Assembly (NCBI RefSeq): GCF_003287355.1
Contig: NZ_QMIM01000010.1
Span: 1 to 64,000 of the forward strand
Direction of reading: 5' to 3'
DNA from: Halorubrum sp. 48-1-W
GTDB taxonomy: Archaea; Halobacteriota; Halobacteria; Halobacteriales; Haloferacaceae
DNA: 64,000 nt
Below the pieces are notes generated by a model. That model was not told where the DNA came from. It did not search any database and saw nothing but the letters and a program-made list of their open reading frames with translations. Position 1 is the first letter of the stretch; each line of letters opens with the position of its first letter. The position numbers and the translations under genes were made by a program. Positions 33,284-42,440 of this stretch are shown here, one piece after another.

Positions 33284-34189
33284 TCACTCGAGCCGTTCCG
33301 TGAGGTACGTCTCGACCGTCCCGTAGTGTTCCTCCGGTTGCTCCCAGAACGGCATGTGGCTGCTCGAGTCGAACTCGACCAACCGCGAGTCGGGGAGCCG
33401 GTCGTCGATCCCCACAGCGATCTCCGGGTCGATCTCGTCGTGTGTCCCGGTGAGCACGAGCGTCGGTACGTCGATCGTCCCGAGTTCGTCACGCACGTCC
33501 CAGCCGCGGAGCCGGGCCGTCTCCGTCAGGACGTACTCGTTCGGCCCCCACATCAGCCCGTACACGTCGGTGTTGACGTTCTCCAGGGTGTGTTCGACCG
33601 CACGCGGGTACTCCTCGAGCCGACAGACGTGGGCACGGTAGACGTCGTCGAGCGCGTCGAGGTACGCGGGCGCGTCGTAGGCACGCCTCGCCTCGTGTTC
33701 CTCGACCACGTCGAGCCGTTCCGACGGGAGGTCCTCGGCGCGGCTCCGCATCGACCGGTACGCGGACGCGGTGTCCGCGAGCGTGTTGGCCAGCACCAGC
33801 CCGGACAGGTGCTCGCCGTACTCGAGCGCGTACTCGAGCGCGAGCATCCCGCCCCACGACTGGCCGTACACGACGAACCGGTCGGGCTCGAGCTCGCGGC
33901 GGACGGCTTCGACCTCCTCGCGGTACGCCTCCACGGTGTACCCGTCGAAGTCGCCGGGGGCGGGCCCACTCGACCGTCCGACGCCGAACTGGTCGTACAG
34001 CACGACGCTCAACTCGTCCGACCCGTGTCGCGAGAGCGGGAGGAGGTAGTCGTGGGGCATGCCGGGGCCCCCGTGGAGCGCGAGCATGACGTCGTCGCCG
34101 TCGCCGAACCGGCGAAAGTACAGTTCCTTGTGGTCGACGGAGAGGTACCCCTCCGCGTGCGGCCGTTCCAGGTACTCGGACGTCGTCAT
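33284..34189 (-). CDS. Proline iminopeptidase-like alpha/beta hydrolase
   Basis: The 301-residue protein matches the S33 proline iminopeptidase family, which removes N-terminal proline. ALHGGPGMPHDYL is the oxyanion-hole region and VVYGQSWGGMLALEYAL holds the nucleophilic serine. VLTGTHDEIDPE carries the catalytic Asp region and DSSSHMPFWEQPEEH the catalytic His. It is on the same strand as the Xaa-Pro peptidase gene and 37 bases away from its start. A TATA-like ATATAT near 34224-34230 precedes it. The start at 34189 (MTTSEYLERPHAEGYL) fits the family. Confidence 0.9.
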   Translation of the reverse strand: MTTSEYLERPHAEGYLSVDHKELYFRRFGDGDDVMLALHGGPGMPHDYLLPLSRHGSDELSVVLYDQFGVGRSSGPAPGDFDGYTVEAYREEVEAVRRELEPDRFVVYGQSWGGMLALEYALEYGEHLSGLVLANTLADTASAYRSMRSRAEDLPSERLDVVEEHEARRAYDAPAYLDALDDVYRAHVCRLEEYPRAVEHTLENVNTDVYGLMWGPNEYVLTETARLRGWDVRDELGTIDVPTLVLTGTHDEIDPEIAVGIDDRLPDSRLVEFDSSSHMPFWEQPEEHYGTVETYLTERLE

Positions 34190-34263
34190 GGACGGATCGA
34201 GTGAACGGACGGGGGCGACGAAGCATATATCTGCCCCTCGCGGAAGACGGACGTCGCGGCTGG

Positions 34264-34341
34264 ACACCACGACCGCGACGCGGGGGAGGACACCACGACG
34301 CCGCGGCGGCGGAACACCACGGCCGCGACGCCACGGCGGGA
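34264..34341. repeat. Imperfect 24-26 bp tandem repeat after the DUF1028 gene
   Basis: Three GC-rich units each begin ACACCACG (34264, 34290, 34314). They end one base before the minus-strand stop of the DUF1028 gene. Confidence 0.65.
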
Positions 34342-35007
34342 CTAGTCGAAGATCCGCTCCTTCGAGTCCTCGCTGAAGCCGTCGCTGGCGTCGTATGCTG
34401 TCTCGTACACCCGACGGATCTCGGCGATGGGGTCGTCGGCGTGGTCGACGCGGAGGTCGTGGTACGCGGTCGTCTTCGGCGCGGACACACACACCGCAGC
34501 GGAGCTGTGTCCGCGCTTGTCGCCGCCGACCTCGACGCCGGCCGCGAGCGCGTCGATCAGGCGGGGAACGAGCCCGGCGTCGACGGCGTCGGCGGGCTCG
34601 GTCGCGAGGAACGCGTCGGCAGCGGCGGGGAGCGCCTCGGGGCCGGCGAGCATGTTGCCGGCGACGGTGACGCCCGCCTCGGGATACGTCTCGTCGCCCG
34701 ACCACGAGTCGGTCTCGTCGCCGGTGTACGCGAAGACGTCGCCGTCGGCGACGCCGTGAAGCTGGCGGAGTTCGCTGTGATCGTCCCGCTCGAGGACGCC
34801 CGAAAGCGCCTGCTCCAGCGGGACGTCCTCGAGGAGCGCGATGCCGCGGCGACCCAGCCGCACGTTGACGAACGCCTGGGTGCTGACGGCACCGCGACTG
34901 CTGACGTACGGGGCGAGCGCGCCCACCGCGGGCGCGTCGGTCGTCACTGCCACGCCGTACACCGTACCGGCGTCGGACTCCTCCTGGACGCAGATCGAGA
35001 ACGTCAT
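34342..35007 (-). CDS. DUF1028 family protein
   Basis: The 221-residue protein begins MTFSICVQEESDAGTVYGVA, followed by VGALAPYVSSRGAVSTQAFVN and GYETYPEAGVTVAGNML-like text near the middle, the pattern of DUF1028. The family is related to Ntn hydrolases, and its genes often accompany gamma-glutamyltransferase and peptide importers in bacteria. The same company is seen here. The activity is unknown; processing or hydrolysis of a gamma-glutamyl or peptide compound is inferred from the neighbourhood. It is divergent from gamma-glutamyltransferase. Confidence 0.88.
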   Translation of the reverse strand: MTFSICVQEESDAGTVYGVAVTTDAPAVGALAPYVSSRGAVSTQAFVNVRLGRRGIALLEDVPLEQALSGVLERDDHSELRQLHGVADGDVFAYTGDETDSWSGDETYPEAGVTVAGNMLAGPEALPAAADAFLATEPADAVDAGLVPRLIDALAAGVEVGGDKRGHSSAAVCVSAPKTTAYHDLRVDHADDPIAEIRRVYETAYDASDGFSEDSKERIFD

Positions 35008-35118
35008 ACGATCCTCTGTGACGGCCGTCGGTATAACGGTCACTCCGAAACTATCCGGTCGGGTTCGCCCGGAACAGTTCGGCTAGTTATTTAACCCAGT
35101 CCTCCGCCAACTGCTCGT

Positions 35119-36777
35119 ATGGAACCAGACCTCGACCGGTTCACTTCGCGTCGATCGACCGTCTACGGCCAGCGTGGCGTCGTCGCGACGAGCCAGCCGC
35201 TCGCGAGCGAGGCGGGAGTAGAGACCCTACGGAACGGGGGCAACGCCTTCGACGCCGCGGTGGCGACCGCCGCGGCGCTCAACGTCGTGGAGCCGACCTC
35301 GACCGGGCTGGGCGGCGACGTGTTCGCGCTGTACCGGACCGCCGACGGCGACGTGGGCGCGATGCGCGCCTGCGGCGGCGCGCCGGCCGACGCCACGATC
35401 GAGAACGTACAGGCCTCCCTCCGGGAGACCGACGACGTCGGCGCGTACTACCCCGACGACGGCGGTTACGCGGTCGACGACACCGAGGAGGCCGGGATGC
35501 CCTTCTACGGCCCGCACACGGTCACCGTCCCCGGCACGGCGCGGGGGTGGGAGGCGACCGTCCAGGAGCTCGGCCGGTTGACCCTCGCCGACGTGCTCGC
35601 GCCGGCGATCCGGTACGCGACCGAGGGCTACCCGGTCTCCGAGGTCATCGCTTCCTACTGGGAGGGGGCCGAGGAGCTGTTCACCGACGGGAACGCCCGC
35701 GAGGCCTTCCTCTTCGGCGGGGAGTCGCCGGCGGTGGGCCAGGAGGTGACCCTCCCGAAGCTCGGCGAGTCGATGGAGCGGATCGCAGAGGAGGGCGCCG
35801 ACGTCGTCTACGATGGCGAGATCGCGGAGGCGATCGCGACGGAGGTCCAGTCACACGGCGGGTTCATGACCGTCGACGACCTCGCGGACTTCGAGGTCGA
35901 GTGGCCGGAGCCGGTCTCGACGACCTACAACGGCGCGGAGGTGTACGAGCTCCCGCCCAACAACCAGGGACTCATCGCGCTCGAGGCGCTCAACGTCGCC
36001 GAGGAGCTGGGCGCGGGCGAGTACGACTACGACTCCGCCGAGCGCGTCCACTACTTCTCGGAGGCGCTCAAGGTCGCCTTCCACGACGGTCACCGCTACA
36101 TCACCGATCCCGAGTACGAGGACCACCCGCCGCTCGGGTCCAAAGGCTGGTCTGCGAAGCGCGCTGTAGAGGTCGGCGAGACGGCGAACCACGACGTGAG
36201 CTTCGGGGTGCCCGACGCGAACGCCGAGGACGCCGACACCGTGCTCCTTACCGTGGCCGACGAGGAGGGCAACGTGGTCTCGTACATCAACTCGCGGTTC
36301 GCCGGGTTCGGCTCCGGGCTCGTCGCAGGCGACACCGGGATCGCCCTCCAGAACCGCGGCGCGTCGTTCTCGCTCGACCCGGATCACCCGAACAGCCTCG
36401 AACCCGGCAAGCGCCCCTTCCACACGCTCATCCCCGGGATCGTCCGCCTCGACGAGGACGACTGGGCGGCCTTCGGCGTGATGGGCGGGTACATGCAGCC
36501 ACAGGGGCACGTTCAGGTGATCTCGAACCTGGTCGACTACGGGATGCCGCTCCAGCGCGCGCTCGACGAGCCGCGGTGGCGGTACCGCGAGAGCGGCGAG
36601 CTTGCGCTCGAACCCCACTTCGACGACGGCACTGCCGCCAAGCTCGTCCGGAAGGACCACCACGTGAGGACGCTCTCGCCGGTACAGTTCGGCGGCGCAC
36701 AGGTCGCCCGGAACCGCGACGGCGTCCTCTCGGCAGCGACGGAGCCACGCAAGGACGGCAACGCACAGGGGTACTGA
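35119..36777 (+). CDS. ggt: Gamma-glutamyltransferase
   Basis: The enzyme hydrolyses or transfers gamma-glutamyl groups and self-cleaves at a threonine. The 552-residue protein has GGNAFDAAVATAAALNVVEP and TSTGLGGDVFALYR at the start of the large subunit. DTVLLTVADEEGNVVSYINS contains the threonine expected to become the small-subunit nucleophile (just after Asp in DADT). No signal peptide is present, so it appears to act in the cytoplasm. Haloarchaea use gamma-glutamylcysteine as thiol, so thiol turnover is possible. The peptide cluster on its left suggests a catabolic role. Confidence 0.92.
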   Translation: MEPDLDRFTSRRSTVYGQRGVVATSQPLASEAGVETLRNGGNAFDAAVATAAALNVVEPTSTGLGGDVFALYRTADGDVGAMRACGGAPADATIENVQASLRETDDVGAYYPDDGGYAVDDTEEAGMPFYGPHTVTVPGTARGWEATVQELGRLTLADVLAPAIRYATEGYPVSEVIASYWEGAEELFTDGNAREAFLFGGESPAVGQEVTLPKLGESMERIAEEGADVVYDGEIAEAIATEVQSHGGFMTVDDLADFEVEWPEPVSTTYNGAEVYELPPNNQGLIALEALNVAEELGAGEYDYDSAERVHYFSEALKVAFHDGHRYITDPEYEDHPPLGSKGWSAKRAVEVGETANHDVSFGVPDANAEDADTVLLTVADEEGNVVSYINSRFAGFGSGLVAGDTGIALQNRGASFSLDPDHPNSLEPGKRPFHTLIPGIVRLDEDDWAAFGVMGGYMQPQGHVQVISNLVDYGMPLQRALDEPRWRYRESGELALEPHFDDGTAAKLVRKDHHVRTLSPVQFGGAQVARNRDGVLSAATEPRKDGNAQGY

Positions 36778-36873: not shown

Positions 36874-36898
36874 GGCCCGTACGGTAGTGAGTCACAGA

Positions 36899-38221
36899 AT
36901 GAGACGGAAAATACAGCGGCGTGACGTTCTCAAAGGCGCTGGTGCGGCCGGAATCGCGACGCTCGCCGGCTGCTCCACCGAGGGTGGCGACGGCGACGGC
37001 GACGGAAGCGACGGCGACGGTGCGCCCGACGCCGTGATGGTCGTGGGGTTCCCGGAGTCCGGCATCCAGCTGTTCCGCGACTTCTACTCCGAGTTCGCCG
37101 ACGATGTGCCCGATCTCGACATAATCGTGCCGGACGGCCTGATCGATACCGACCTCCCCGGCGAGGTCGACAACGACATGAACAACGTCATCGGGACCGC
37201 GCCGTCGGCGGGTGGTCCGGGTGCGGACTTCTTCGCCGACCTGTACGAGGAGGAGTACGACACCTCCCCGGCCGTGTTCAACGCGCAGGCTTACGACGCG
37301 ATGGCGGTCGAGATCCTCGCCGCGACCGCGGCGGGCGAGAACGACGGATCGGCGATCCGCGACCGGATCCGGACCGTCGCGAACCCCGGTGGCGACGAGT
37401 TCGGCCCGGAGGACCTCCCCGAGGCGGTCGAGACCGTCGCTGGCGGTGACCCCGTCCACTACGTCGGGGCGTCCTCGAGCGTCGACTTCGACGTCAACGG
37501 GGACATCGCCACCGCCGCGTACGACGTGCGGGACTTCCAGGACGGCGAGATCGAGACGCTCGACACGCTGGAGTTCGGTAACGAACTCTCTGACGAGGAC
37601 CAGGACGCGACGGCCGAAGACCCGGTCGGCGTCGACGAGTTCGAGGCACGCATCGGCGTGTTGATGCCCGAGACCGGTGACCTCGGTCCGCTCGGCGGTC
37701 CGATCCGCGACGGCGCGCTACTCGCAGCGACCCAGGTCAACGACGCCGGGCTCAACGTCACGGTCGACACCCGCGTCGAAGACACACAGACCGACCCGCA
37801 GGCGGGTATCTCGGGCGCGAACGCACTCGTCGACGCTGGCTTCGGCGCCGTCGTCGGCCCCGCCGCCTCGAACGTGAACCTCCAGGTGGCCGACCAGGTG
37901 TTCATCCCGAACGGCGTCGTCGGCATCTCCCCGTCCTCGACGAGTCCGGACGTGACCGAGTTGGACGACGACGACTACGTCTTCCGGACCGCCCCGTCGG
38001 ACCTGCTACAGGGCCCGGCGATGGCCCAGCTCGCGAGCGGCGATCGGGTGGGTGCGGAGTCCTCCGGGACGCTGTACCTCAACGACGCCTACGGCCAGTC
38101 GCTCGAGGAGGAGTACGCGGCTGCCTTCGAGGAGAACGGCGGAGAGGTCACGGAGCGCGTCTCCTTCGAGCCGGCACAGTCGACGTACACCAGCCAGTGG
38201 TCGAGCGTCCTGAACGAGTAG
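36899..38221 (+). CDS. Branched-chain amino acid type substrate-binding lipoprotein, lobes in permuted order
   Basis: The 440-residue protein starts with a Tat-like signal (QRRDVLKGAGAAGIATLAGC, lipid Cys25) and an acidic linker. Residues 43-222 (PDAVMVVGFPESGIQLFRDF through NAQAYDAMAVEILAA) are what normally forms the second, C-terminal lobe of Leu/Ile/Val-type binding proteins. A new acidic linker (226-247) follows. Residues 248-440 (FEARIGVLMPETGDLGPLGG to TYTSQWSSVLNE) are the normal first lobe. The frame stops where the family would pass into the second lobe. This is the order of a circular permutant. The gene converges on livF and is the only candidate receptor for livHMGF here. Confidence 0.85.
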   Translation: MRRKIQRRDVLKGAGAAGIATLAGCSTEGGDGDGDGSDGDGAPDAVMVVGFPESGIQLFRDFYSEFADDVPDLDIIVPDGLIDTDLPGEVDNDMNNVIGTAPSAGGPGADFFADLYEEEYDTSPAVFNAQAYDAMAVEILAATAAGENDGSAIRDRIRTVANPGGDEFGPEDLPEAVETVAGGDPVHYVGASSSVDFDVNGDIATAAYDVRDFQDGEIETLDTLEFGNELSDEDQDATAEDPVGVDEFEARIGVLMPETGDLGPLGGPIRDGALLAATQVNDAGLNVTVDTRVEDTQTDPQAGISGANALVDAGFGAVVGPAASNVNLQVADQVFIPNGVVGISPSSTSPDVTELDDDDYVFRTAPSDLLQGPAMAQLASGDRVGAESSGTLYLNDAYGQSLEEEYAAAFEENGGEVTERVSFEPAQSTYTSQWSSVLNE

Positions 38222-38313: not shown

Positions 38314-39120
38314 CTACCCGCCGAGGAAGTCCTTCCGCACGTCTTCGTCCGTAAGCAGTACGTCGCCGCGGTCGGTGTAGCGGTTCTCGCCGTTAACGAG
38401 CACGTAACCGCGGTCACAGCGGCGTAGCGCCTCCTTCGCGTTCTGTTCGACCATCAGGACCGCGGTCCCGCCCTCGTTGATCCGGTCGATCCGATCGAAC
38501 ATGTCGGCGACGAGGTCGGGCGCGAGCCCCGCCGACGGCTCGTCGAGCAACAGCAGGTCCGGATCGAGCATGAGCGCCCGCCCCATCGCGACCATCTGGC
38601 GCTGGCCGCCGGAGAGCGTCCCCGCCTTCTGATCGTTCCGCCTCCGGAGGATCGGGAAGCGGTCGTAGACCTCCTCGATCCGGTCCTCCGGGACGCTTTC
38701 GAGGATGTACGCGCCCATCTCGAGGTTCTCGCGCACGCTCAGGCCGGGGAACACGTTGTCGGTCTGGGGGACGAACCCGATCCCCTCGCGGATTATCTGC
38801 TCGGGTGCGAGCCCCTGGATCGGCTGGCCCTCGAACTCGACGACCCCGTCCATGTACGTCGTGAGCCCGAAGACCGTCTTCATTACCGTCGACTTCCCCG
38901 CACCGTTGGGACCGACGACGGTGACGTACTCCCCCTCTCCGACGTCGAGGTCGACATCGGAGAGGATCTGCAGGTCGCCGTACCCGGCGTCGAGGTCGCG
39001 AAGCCGGAGGATGGCGTCGCCCTCGAGCGTGTGTGACGTTCCCGCGACCCCTTCGTCGCCGTCGGCGGGTGTCGCGTCGTCGGGGGCACTCGACGTCTCG
39101 CCGGCGTCCTCGGCGCTCAT
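38314..39120 (-). CDS. livF: Branched-chain amino acid ABC transporter ATP-binding protein LivF
   Basis: The 268-residue ATPase has Walker A VGPNGAGKST, signature LSGGQRQMVAMGRAL and Walker B LLLLDEPSAGLAP; the SAGLAP ending is typical of LivF. An acidic 35-residue N-terminal extension precedes the ATPase. It is last in the order livH-livM-livG-livF, overlapping livG by four bases. Confidence 0.92.
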   Translation of the reverse strand: MSAEDAGETSSAPDDATPADGDEGVAGTSHTLEGDAILRLRDLDAGYGDLQILSDVDLDVGEGEYVTVVGPNGAGKSTVMKTVFGLTTYMDGVVEFEGQPIQGLAPEQIIREGIGFVPQTDNVFPGLSVRENLEMGAYILESVPEDRIEEVYDRFPILRRRNDQKAGTLSGGQRQMVAMGRALMLDPDLLLLDEPSAGLAPDLVADMFDRIDRINEGGTAVLMVEQNAKEALRRCDRGYVLVNGENRYTDRGDVLLTDEDVRKDFLGG

Positions 39121-40004
39121 ATGTCCTCCCCCAGGTACGCCTCGATGACGCGTTCGTCGTTCCGTATCTCTTCGCCGGTCCCTTCGGCGAGGACGGTTCC
39201 CTGATGCATGACGATGACGTGCTCGCAGTTGTTCATGATGACGTCCATGTCGTGTTCGACGAGGAGGAACGTGTACCCGTCCGCGCGAAGCCGGTGGATC
39301 CGATCGAGCAACTTCTCCTCTAACGTCGGGTTGACGCCCGCCAGCGGCTCGTCGAGCAGGACCATCTCGGGGTCGGTCATGAGCGCGCGGGCCATCTCGA
39401 GGAGCTTCCGTTGCCCGCCGGAGAGGTTCCCCGCATGTTCGTTCGCGAGGTGGTCGATCTCGAAGAAGTCGAGCGTCTCCCAGGCACGCTCGCGGATGGC
39501 CTTCTCCTGTTCGACCACCTCGCCCCGGAGACCCGGCGTGACCGATCGGATCGCCGACTCGCCGATCTGTCCCTTCGGGGCGAGCATCAGGTTCTCCAGC
39601 ACGGTCATCTCCTCCAGCTCGCGGGCGATCTGGAAGGTCCGGACGAGGCCCTTGCGCGCCATTTGGTACGGCTTCAGTCCCGTGACGTCTTCGCTTTTGA
39701 AGTACACGTTTCCCGCCGTCGGCTCGTGGACGCCGGTGATACAGTCGAACGTCGTCGATTTTCCGGCGCCGTTCGGACCGATCAGGCCGGTCAACGACCC
39801 CTGTTCGACCTCGAAGGTGGCCCCGTCGACGGCGGTGACGCCGCCGAACCGCTTGACGAGCCCCTCGACGCGGAGCGGAACGCCTGACGGCGTGTGCTTG
39901 GCCGCCTTTTCGACCTCGCTGTCGTTCGCCTCCGGTTCGTCGCCGGGCGTCGCCGCGTCCGCCGCCTCGGCGACGTCGGACGCGTCCGGGACGTCGCTAC
40001 TCAT
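39117..40004 (-). CDS. livG: Branched-chain amino acid ABC transporter ATP-binding protein LivG
   Basis: The 295-residue ATPase has Walker A IGPNGAGKST, signature LSGGQRKLLEMARAL and Walker B MVLLDEPLAGVNP. The C-terminal FLLVEHDMDVIMNNCEHVIV is a LivG landmark. The ATG at 40004 overlaps the end of livM by eight bases; an ATG three codons earlier is also possible. An acidic leader of about 35 residues precedes the ATPase, as in livF. Confidence 0.92.
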   Translation of the reverse strand: MSSDVPDASDVAEAADAATPGDEPEANDSEVEKAAKHTPSGVPLRVEGLVKRFGGVTAVDGATFEVEQGSLTGLIGPNGAGKSTTFDCITGVHEPTAGNVYFKSEDVTGLKPYQMARKGLVRTFQIARELEEMTVLENLMLAPKGQIGESAIRSVTPGLRGEVVEQEKAIRERAWETLDFFEIDHLANEHAGNLSGGQRKLLEMARALMTDPEMVLLDEPLAGVNPTLEEKLLDRIHRLRADGYTFLLVEHDMDVIMNNCEHVIVMHQGTVLAEGTGEEIRNDERVIEAYLGEDI

Positions 40005-41322
40005 CGACCTCACCCTCGCTGGGACGTTCGGAGAGGTCGACGGCCGCGGCCGTCTCGATCCGGTCGCCGAGAATGCCGTCGGGTCGTCGGTGGATGATGA
40101 ACACGAGTATCAGCCCGAGGAGGACGAACTGGAGCGGCGCGATGTTGTCGGTCGCGAACGCGAGGAACGCCGTCGGGTCGAGCGTGGCCACCGCGTCGGC
40201 GAACGAGGCCGGCGTCTCGGCGTCGATGACGTCGCGCACCGTCGCCCCGGCGCGTCGCGGCCCCTCGAACAGCACCGTCGCGAAGACGATCCCACCGAGA
40301 ACCGCGCCGGCGTTCGACCCCGACCCGCCGATGATGACGGCGATGAACACGTAGAAGGTCAAGAGAGGCATGAACTGCGGCGTCGGCGAGACGTTGCCCT
40401 GGCTGCCGAACCAGAGGATCCCCGCCAGCCCCATCAGCGCACAGCCGATAACGAACACCTTGATCTTGATCAGGTTCACGTCCTTCCCGAGCGAATCCGC
40501 GACGAGTTCGTCCTCGCGGATCGCCTTGAGGGTCCGACCGAACGGGGAGCGACCGAGCCGTTCGAGAAGCACGAAGAACCCGATCACGAAGCCGGCGAGG
40601 ACGACGATGTACCCCAAGTCGATGAGGATCGAGTTGGAGATGCCGAGCCCCCCGGCACCGAACACACCGAAGACGAGGTCGCCGAGTGCCGTCGGGGTAC
40701 CGCGTTGACCGTCGACGAGGAAGAGCTCGCGGACCGGGTTCCGTGGCATCCCCATCCCGCTGCCGCCGCCGGTTCCGACGCCGAGCGTGTCCCGGAGGAA
40801 CGCGTCGAACGCGCTGGACTGGAGGAATAGCCGGACGATCTCCGAGATGCCGAGGGTGACGATCGCGAGGTAGTCGGCCTTGAGCCGGAGTGCCGGGAGC
40901 GCCGCGATCAGGCCGACCAACGCGGCGACCAGCATGCCGGCGACGATGCCGACCGGCAACGGGAGCCCGAATCCGGGCGGACCGAACGCCGGGTCCGGCG
41001 ATCGGACGACGATTCCCATCGTGTAGACGCCGAGCGCCATGAACCCGGCCACGCCGATGTTGAACAGTCCGGCGTATCCCCACTGGAGGTTCAGCGCGAG
41101 CGCTGAGAGGGCGTACACCAGCCCGAGGAACGTCAGGGTTCGCATCAGGCCGACGACGCTGTTGAGTCCGTCAGTGAAGGTGAGGAGGGCCGCGACGAGG
41201 TAGACGAGTAGCAGCGTCCCGAGGATAAGCCCGAGGTCGCTGCGGCGCGCGGCCTCGAACAGGGCGGTCGTCGCGCTCTCGGGTGCCTCCGTGTCTTTCG
41301 GACGGGACGAGTCGTCGCTCAT
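39997..41322 (-). CDS. livM: Branched-chain amino acid ABC transporter permease LivM
   Basis: The 441-residue membrane protein has eight or more hydrophobic segments. LNLQWGYAGLFNIGVAGFMALG is the LivM start, and GRTLKAIREDELVADSLGKD is the cytoplasmic loop that contacts the ATPases. It is longer than bacterial LivM because of a loop after residue 180 (LGVGTGGGSGMGMPRNP) and a second one near residue 385. It overlaps livH by four bases. The start at 41322 (MSDDSSRPKDTE) follows that overlap. Confidence 0.91.
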   Translation of the reverse strand: MSDDSSRPKDTEAPESATTALFEAARRSDLGLILGTLLLVYLVAALLTFTDGLNSVVGLMRTLTFLGLVYALSALALNLQWGYAGLFNIGVAGFMALGVYTMGIVVRSPDPAFGPPGFGLPLPVGIVAGMLVAALVGLIAALPALRLKADYLAIVTLGISEIVRLFLQSSAFDAFLRDTLGVGTGGGSGMGMPRNPVRELFLVDGQRGTPTALGDLVFGVFGAGGLGISNSILIDLGYIVVLAGFVIGFFVLLERLGRSPFGRTLKAIREDELVADSLGKDVNLIKIKVFVIGCALMGLAGILWFGSQGNVSPTPQFMPLLTFYVFIAVIIGGSGSNAGAVLGGIVFATVLFEGPRRAGATVRDVIDAETPASFADAVATLDPTAFLAFATDNIAPLQFVLLGLILVFIIHRRPDGILGDRIETAAAVDLSERPSEGEVDE

Positions 41323-42440
41323 GCGGTCGTCACACCTCCGAACAGGCCCTCTGGACGCAACAGGAGCATGGTGATCATCACGGCGAATGCGGCGGCCTCG
41401 TTGAAGTCCGAGGGGATCCAGATCGTCGAGGTCGTGAACACGACCCCGATGACGACCCCACCGGCGATCGCGCCGTACACCGACCCGATGCCGCCGAGGA
41501 TCACGGCAGCGAAGATGAGGAGGAGGAGCAGCCAGCCGAAGTCGAACTGGATCGTCCCCCGGAGCAACACGTAGAGGTAGCCGGAGGCCCCCGCGAGCCC
41601 GCCGCCGATGATCCACGTGGCGGTGACGACGCGCTCGGCCGGAATGCCGGTGATCAACGCGAGGTCCTTGTTGTCCGCCATCGCCCGCATCGCGGTGCCG
41701 AGCTTCGTGTGCTGGAGCATGAAGTGCATCGCCAGCATGAGCCCGACGGCCGCGACGACGATGGTCAACTCGTGGGCGTTGATCGAGAGGCCGAGCGGGC
41801 CGAACGCGAGGTTCGACGCGTCGACGCTCGCCGTAACGCCCCGTCGGTCGGAGCCGTAGACGAACTGGATGACGTACCTGACGACCAGCGCGGCGCCGAT
41901 CGACGCGATGAGGATCGAGATCCCGTCGCGGTCCCGCATCGGCTTGTAGAAGGCACGATCGAGCGCCAGCGCGACGACTGCGGTGACCGTGAAGGCGACG
42001 ACGAGACCGATCAGTATCGCCACCGGCGCCGTGAGGATATGTGCGCCGATGTCACCGGCGCTCACGTCCCCGGCGTCCCGAACGGTCACCAGCGCGCGGA
42101 CCGGCACGTCGCCGAAGCCGGCGATCAGGAAGGCGACCCCCCAACCGGTGAACGCCCCCGTGCTGACGAGGTCTCCGTGCGAGAAGTTCGCGAACGAGAG
42201 GATACTGTACGTCATCGAGAGTCCGATCCCGGCGAGCCCGATCACGAGCCCGATCACGAGCCCGTTCCAGAGGTTCGAGCCGAGCCGGTCCGCGGAAAGG
42301 GCCCCGCCGATCGGACCGACCGTGACTCCCGCGAGCTTCGCCGCGAGATCGACGAGGAGCAGCCCGCCGACCAGAGCGACGAGGAGGATCCCCGGTCGGG
42401 TCCGCACTGCGTCGACGATCGACGGATCAGTCGTTCCCAT
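41319..42440 (-). CDS. livH: Branched-chain amino acid ABC transporter permease LivH
   Basis: The 373-residue permease has about nine hydrophobic segments. SMTYSILSFANFSHGDLVSTGAF is the LivH N-terminal motif, and GTAMRAMADNKDLALITGI is the ATPase-contact loop. It begins the livHMGF operon. An AT-rich TAAATAATT near 42479-42487 may be the promoter. No substrate-binding gene precedes it in the operon; the only one nearby lies beyond livF on the other strand. Confidence 0.92.
   Translation of the reverse strand: MGTTDPSIVDAVRTRPGILLVALVGGLLLVDLAAKLAGVTVGPIGGALSADRLGSNLWNGLVIGLVIGLAGIGLSMTYSILSFANFSHGDLVSTGAFTGWGVAFLIAGFGDVPVRALVTVRDAGDVSAGDIGAHILTAPVAILIGLVVAFTVTAVVALALDRAFYKPMRDRDGISILIASIGAALVVRYVIQFVYGSDRRGVTASVDASNLAFGPLGLSINAHELTIVVAAVGLMLAMHFMLQHTKLGTAMRAMADNKDLALITGIPAERVVTATWIIGGGLAGASGYLYVLLRGTIQFDFGWLLLLLIFAAVILGGIGSVYGAIAGGVVIGVVFTTSTIWIPSDFNEAAAFAVMITMLLLRPEGLFGGVTTA

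Follow-up and report, generated by a model that had tools for sequence, protein, structure and literature searches.

A protein family usually offers a single natural circular permutation, and one that is observed long after the event that gave rise to it. Amongst type I substrate-binding proteins the closest described case is TpMglB-2 (Tp0684) from Treponema pallidum, for which the class names 'Type Ic' or 'Cluster Bc' have been proposed, and whose authors considered that the permutation is perhaps an adaptation to membrane anchoring (PMC4990184). Here, we have analysed a 64,000-nucleotide stretch of DNA from Halorubrum sp. 48-1-W (the window) which encodes a LivJ/LivK-type (PF13458) substrate-binding protein of type I that has undergone natural circular permutation. 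In this protein the canonical second half of the sequence (N2) comes first and is followed by a linker and the canonical first half (N1).

Table 1. Coordinates of the permuted gene, its parts and its neighbours in the window
Feature	Position	Strand	Remarks
Gamma-glutamyltransferase (GGT)	35119-36777	+	Conserved upstream neighbour in Halorubrum
LivJ/LivK-like permuted substrate-binding lipoprotein, 440 aa	36899-38221	+	ATG at 36899, stop ends at 38221
Tat-type signal (RRDVLK) and lipobox LAGC, residues 1-25	36899-36973	+	From sequence
Gly/Asp/Ser-rich spacer from lipobox to domain, residues 26-42	36974-37024	+	Variable length; from alignment
Canonical second half (N2), residues 43-228	37025-37582	+	Pfam 191 onward, now N-terminal
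Linker from old C-terminus to old N-terminus, ~20-22 aa	37583-37642	+	GNELSDEDQDATAEDPVGVDEF, counted from residue 227
Canonical first half (N1), residues 249-440	37643-38218	+	Pfam 3-186, now C-terminal, ends SVLNE
LivF-like ATPase	38314-39120	-	Convergent partner transporter gene
LivG-like ATPase (BCA_ABC_TP_C)	39117-40013	-	
LivM-like permease (BPD_transp_2)	39997-41325	-	
LivH-like permease (BPD_transp_2)	41319-42440	-	

Swapped order and the position of the break

The first-pass annotation of this DNA had described a single continuous frame with a lipoprotein signal and an acidic linker between two exchanged halves, and each of these features is present (Table 1). The open frame, for which an alternative upstream GTG start at 36887 is possible, encodes a protein beginning MRRKIQRRDVLKGAGAAGIATLAGC, in which a Tat motif and a lipobox can be recognised; PF10518 matches this region with an E-value of 2e-4, slightly below the cut-off of that profile. 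The linker occupies residues ~227-248. The spacer that follows the lipobox is a tandem repeat of GD/SDG type whose length differs strongly among species (window 36974-37024; L033-L051).

The Peripla_BP_6 profile (PF13458) matches the protein as encoded in two swapped pieces (E-value 5e-32), with profile positions 191-311 (residues 44-161) preceding positions 3-186 (residues 251-437). When residues 248-440 were placed ahead of residues 43-228, a single PF13458 match spanning profile positions 3-311 was restored (E-value 4e-36), together with a single ANF_receptor match (7-351). Similarly, the re-ordered version aligns continuously with the LivK structure from Thermotoga, 3td9_A (4-317 to 18-328, E-value 3e-18), whereas the protein as encoded matches this chain in two swapped pieces (E-value 1.6e-14). 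The protein is thus not collinear with ordinary family members, and the natural permutation proposed at first pass is confirmed. Peripla_BP_6 and ANF_receptor are its Pfam domain matches, and its sequence matches in the PDB, none of them a sugar-binding protein, are metabotropic glutamate receptors and chains of the leucine or HAAT type.

One element of the earlier description proved wrong, namely that the exchanged halves are the two structural lobes. In leucine-binding proteins the second lobe comprises residues ~122-248. By alignment, the break falls at Pfam position ~186-191 and residues 248-440 correspond to LivJ-like chains up to approximately residue 192, which places it in the middle of lobe 2, and so N1 and N2 are halves of the sequence rather than lobes. 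The site is a loop of 3-4 residues between a helix and a strand, reading ...SxAL-xDD-PDxLM... in the canonical order. All permuted genes examined, from every group, break within a few residues of this site: N1 stops directly after the helix that precedes the xDD loop (ending SVLNE, INSAMNQ or INQALSSGN) and N2 begins at the PD that follows it. Structural models add little to this picture, since the two AlphaFold models, built from a shallow alignment, had mean pLDDT values of 56.6 and 40.7, too poor for distances between termini to be taken from them. Leucine-binding proteins were the top structural matches of the better, still low-confidence, model, in which residues 248-440 align with the N-terminal ~192 residues of LivJ-like chains (Z 6.6-9.2); residues 68-440 also align end to end with permuted TpMglB-2 at a Z of 6.6, which is not significant alone.

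Distribution and number of origins

Permuted homologues, as anticipated at first pass, do occur in other genomes. We drew 392 Halobacteriales genomes evenly and counted a gene as permuted if it gave a single collinear match with an E-value of 1e-90 or better, a cut-off that was never reached by the halves alone (~5e-74 at best). The collinear permuted gene is found in 160 of these genomes and in 36 of 95 genera. In the window's own genus it is present in 32 of 34 other genomes, including one in which it is interrupted (G029); here the gene is split by an insertion of ~1.4 kb that is probably a mobile element (L024, G029:C2:2079722-2083657). A scan with the DNA pattern returned 21 permuted loci, 20 of which are labelled Halorubrum or Halohasta, with 74-85% identity over the best segment. 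The same order is conserved in ~20 named Halorubrum and Halohasta assemblies as well as in the 160 of 392 genomes, which excludes both chance and misassembly, including the assembly rearrangement that had been raised as a concern. No permuted gene was found in plasmids, viral contigs, Bacillota or those archaea of the phylum that lie outside Halobacteriales, all of which were sampled to a limited extent; the matches there have the canonical order or cover one half only. At the liv locus of one genus (g46) we also noted tandem pairs of permuted binding proteins (L066, L068, L069 and L109), and in the single pair inspected (L109) the second copy is without an obvious lipobox cysteine.

The window gene lies tail-to-tail with a LivF-LivG-LivM-LivH operon (38314-42440, minus strand), and this convergent arrangement recurs in almost all permuted and unpermuted homologues for which there is enough flanking sequence. 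Unpermuted orthologues that are up to 66% identical hold the same locus in other species. One such case is within the window's genus (L136, G034:C1:66000-79000), where an unpermuted orthologue sits beside the same GGT (81%) with a correspondingly diverged liv operon. Binding protein and transporter therefore appear to move as a unit, and in this genome they appear to have been replaced as such beside the conserved GGT. Conservation of GGT next to the binding protein across Halorubrum hints at gamma-glutamyl or peptide nitrogen use. The gene in the window is also adjoined, across 33284-36777, by genes for GGT, a DUF1028 protein and an alpha/beta hydrolase resembling S33 aminopeptidases.

We built a tree of 84 binding-protein homologues with their halves put into canonical order. 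Three sets of permuted genes, PA (the window's clade), the large clade PB and g19, form separate groups with support of 100/99-100, with PA nested among unpermuted genes. This tree requires four changes of state, and none of 200 bootstrap trees joins all permuted genes. Trees of N1 alone and of N2 alone also need four changes each and give the same groups, so that there is no support for N1 and N2 having been joined from different sources. The concatenated LivF, LivG, LivM and LivH tree (1363 columns), whose sequences are themselves untouched by the permutation, shows the same four changes, such that throughout these trees unpermuted genes separate the permuted ones into three or four groups. 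Forcing one permuted clade on the binding protein costs 52 log units, with a marginal AU p of 0.0498, and forcing PA and PB alone together costs 29 (AU p=0.025). The same constraint of one clade is rejected on the transporter genes (dlnL 163, AU p ~1.7e-129), a test that assumes that binding protein and transporter travelled together. Given that a single gain would further require at least eight reversions, compared with four gains, we conclude that the permutation has, as far as these trees can tell, arisen independently at least twice and probably three times, in PA, PB and g19. A further gene, L101, may represent a fourth origin or may belong with g19, whose linker its own resembles.

An unlikely alternative is that the permutation happened once, in the haloarchaeal ancestor of the locus, and was followed by repeated reversions or obscured by hidden paralogy. 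The break within a few residues of one site in every permuted gene would fit such a history, as would the marginal AU result on the binding protein alone. The transporter tree and the number of reversions argue against it, and each reversion would, moreover, have had to restore the xDD-PD kind of junction that unpermuted genes carry and that has a similar counterpart in a Bacillota relative. The linkers also differ between the permuted groups, with three types in total: GNELSDEDxxATAxDPVGVDEF in PA, EGxNPDGxGPSADSxPGGxGR in PB and (G)GSGDxPQPEPxGSGSxxxRT in g19, to which that of L101 is related. Hidden paralogues, for their part, would still leave the permuted genes as one clade.

Function, membrane tether and route to the permuted form

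We regard it as quite probable that these proteins are working receptors of a LivHMGF-type ABC importer for small amino-acid-like solutes, recurrently permuted at one loop. Conservation reaches at least 95% in the permuted and the unpermuted form alike at S324, S344-P345, S347-T348, Y398, D79, G50-P52-G55 and further positions. By motif, we take S324, T348 and Y398 to be the counterparts of the carboxylate- and amino-binding Ser79, Thr102 and Tyr150 of the Leu/Ile/Val-binding protein. The conserved residues are the same in permuted and unpermuted proteins, with no change specific to the permuted form beyond A206, and nothing suggests that the binding chemistry would have altered. Since both halves retain all of the conserved pocket positions, they would be expected to fold into an ordinary two-lobed Venus-flytrap, with the acidic linker bridging the old termini. 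The receptor would leave the cell through Tat, receive its lipid at the lipobox cysteine and then pass its ligand to LivHM. A lipobox was found in 78 of 88 permuted genes, compared with 30 of 31 unpermuted ones, leaving 10 of the 88 without a clear one, and the median spacer from lipobox to domain is similar in the two forms (32.5 and 30 aa, respectively).

It could instead be that permutation changed the function, turning a transporter receptor into a sensor, a ligand-binding protein for a chemoreceptor or a storage binder. TpMglB-2, a permuted relative in fold, has been discussed in connection with chemoreception (PMC4990184), and some permuted copies have no lipobox or occur in tandem pairs. 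We nevertheless consider such a change improbable, as both forms show near-constant convergent pairing with livFGMH, the binding-protein and transporter trees agree, and conserved positions are unaltered in the permuted form beyond A206. That the gene is decayed or scrambled, or an assembly artefact, as the one interrupted copy might suggest, has almost no probability and is refuted for the family as a whole by dozens of independent assemblies in which it is intact, by dN/dS values of 0.16-0.31 from codon comparison within the window's clade and by the conserved pocket and locus. Judging from these codons, the permuted gene in the window's clade is under purifying selection.

In the permuted proteins the membrane tether would no longer sit at the beginning of lobe 1 but on an outer loop of lobe 2, and we hypothesise that this shift is what selection favoured. 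The fuller proposal, that at least three independent permutations of one orthologous gene at an identical hinge loop were driven by selection for this move of the lipid tether between lobes, is one that we advance tentatively, as somewhat less than probable. If it is true, the recurrent tether shift would be an adaptation in the architecture of extracellular binding proteins that evolution can repeat.

The standard explanation of circular permutation invokes duplication (PMC3320104), and duplication followed by trimming would be the most likely route here; the tandem duplication suggested at first pass is plausible. No relics of lost halves were seen beside the permuted genes at 55 permuted loci. 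One non-halobacterial archaeon of the phylum encodes a 763-aa lipoprotein made of two complete fused LivJ-like units (L172:1-5501, G483:C1:169500-175000). Its order, N1-N2-N1-N2 in one lipoprotein, is what a duplication intermediate should look like, and its existence indicates that this type is tolerated. However, it is a distant relative that has not been trimmed to a permuted single unit, and is the only fused double binding protein that we found. We considered whether the shared breakpoint could stem from microhomology of the Asp/Gly-rich spacer with the xDD junction, but no enrichment was seen (the junction ranked at 0.46, the median of all positions), and it is therefore more likely that the shared site reflects a structural or functional constraint.

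Comparison with described binding proteins

The open literature that we searched contained no report of permuted haloarchaeal binding proteins, which is no proof of novelty, and a recurrent permutation of an archaeal LivJ-type protein at one site appears to be new within that literature. The recurrence at a single breakpoint, apparently through several independent events, amounts to a natural experiment of an unusual kind in how proteins evolve. In culturable haloarchaea, orthologues of both forms share locus and transporter and are up to 66% identical, and such close pairs permit direct tests of why a permutation becomes fixed (whether for the position of the tether, for export, for folding or for adaptation to salt), as well as of how it originates and how linkers evolve. 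The repetition also makes the membrane-anchoring idea put forward for TpMglB-2 testable. More practically, biosensor design gains a permutation site that nature has used repeatedly, and it should be borne in mind that sequence tools label these proteins mainly from one half.

The unpermuted haloarchaeal orthologues L136-L144 (~60-66% identity to the window protein) share its convergent livFGMH locus and type of signal. They are in canonical order, and an xDD loop occupies the site of the permuted form's termini. More broadly, LivJ/LivK and HAAT-type proteins (PF13458; 3td9, 3ipc, 4n0q and 1usg) have in common with it their family, pocket motifs and LivHMGF linkage, and differ in having the canonical order rather than N2-linker-N1. 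The other known permuted type I binding proteins belong to one lineage, that of Treponema TpMglB-2, and have a different break. Like the window protein, TpMglB-2 is a circularly permuted type I binding protein, tethered N-terminally as a lipoprotein and partnered with an ABC importer. It is, however, bacterial and a member of the glucose-binding MglB family, whereas the window protein is LivJ-like and gave no match to sugar-binding proteins such as MglB among its Pfam and PDB sequence hits. In TpMglB-2 the first three strands of the N-lobe have moved to the C-terminus and a fourth hinge crossing has been added; in the window protein the break instead follows Pfam position ~186, inside lobe 2, and recurs in several clades.
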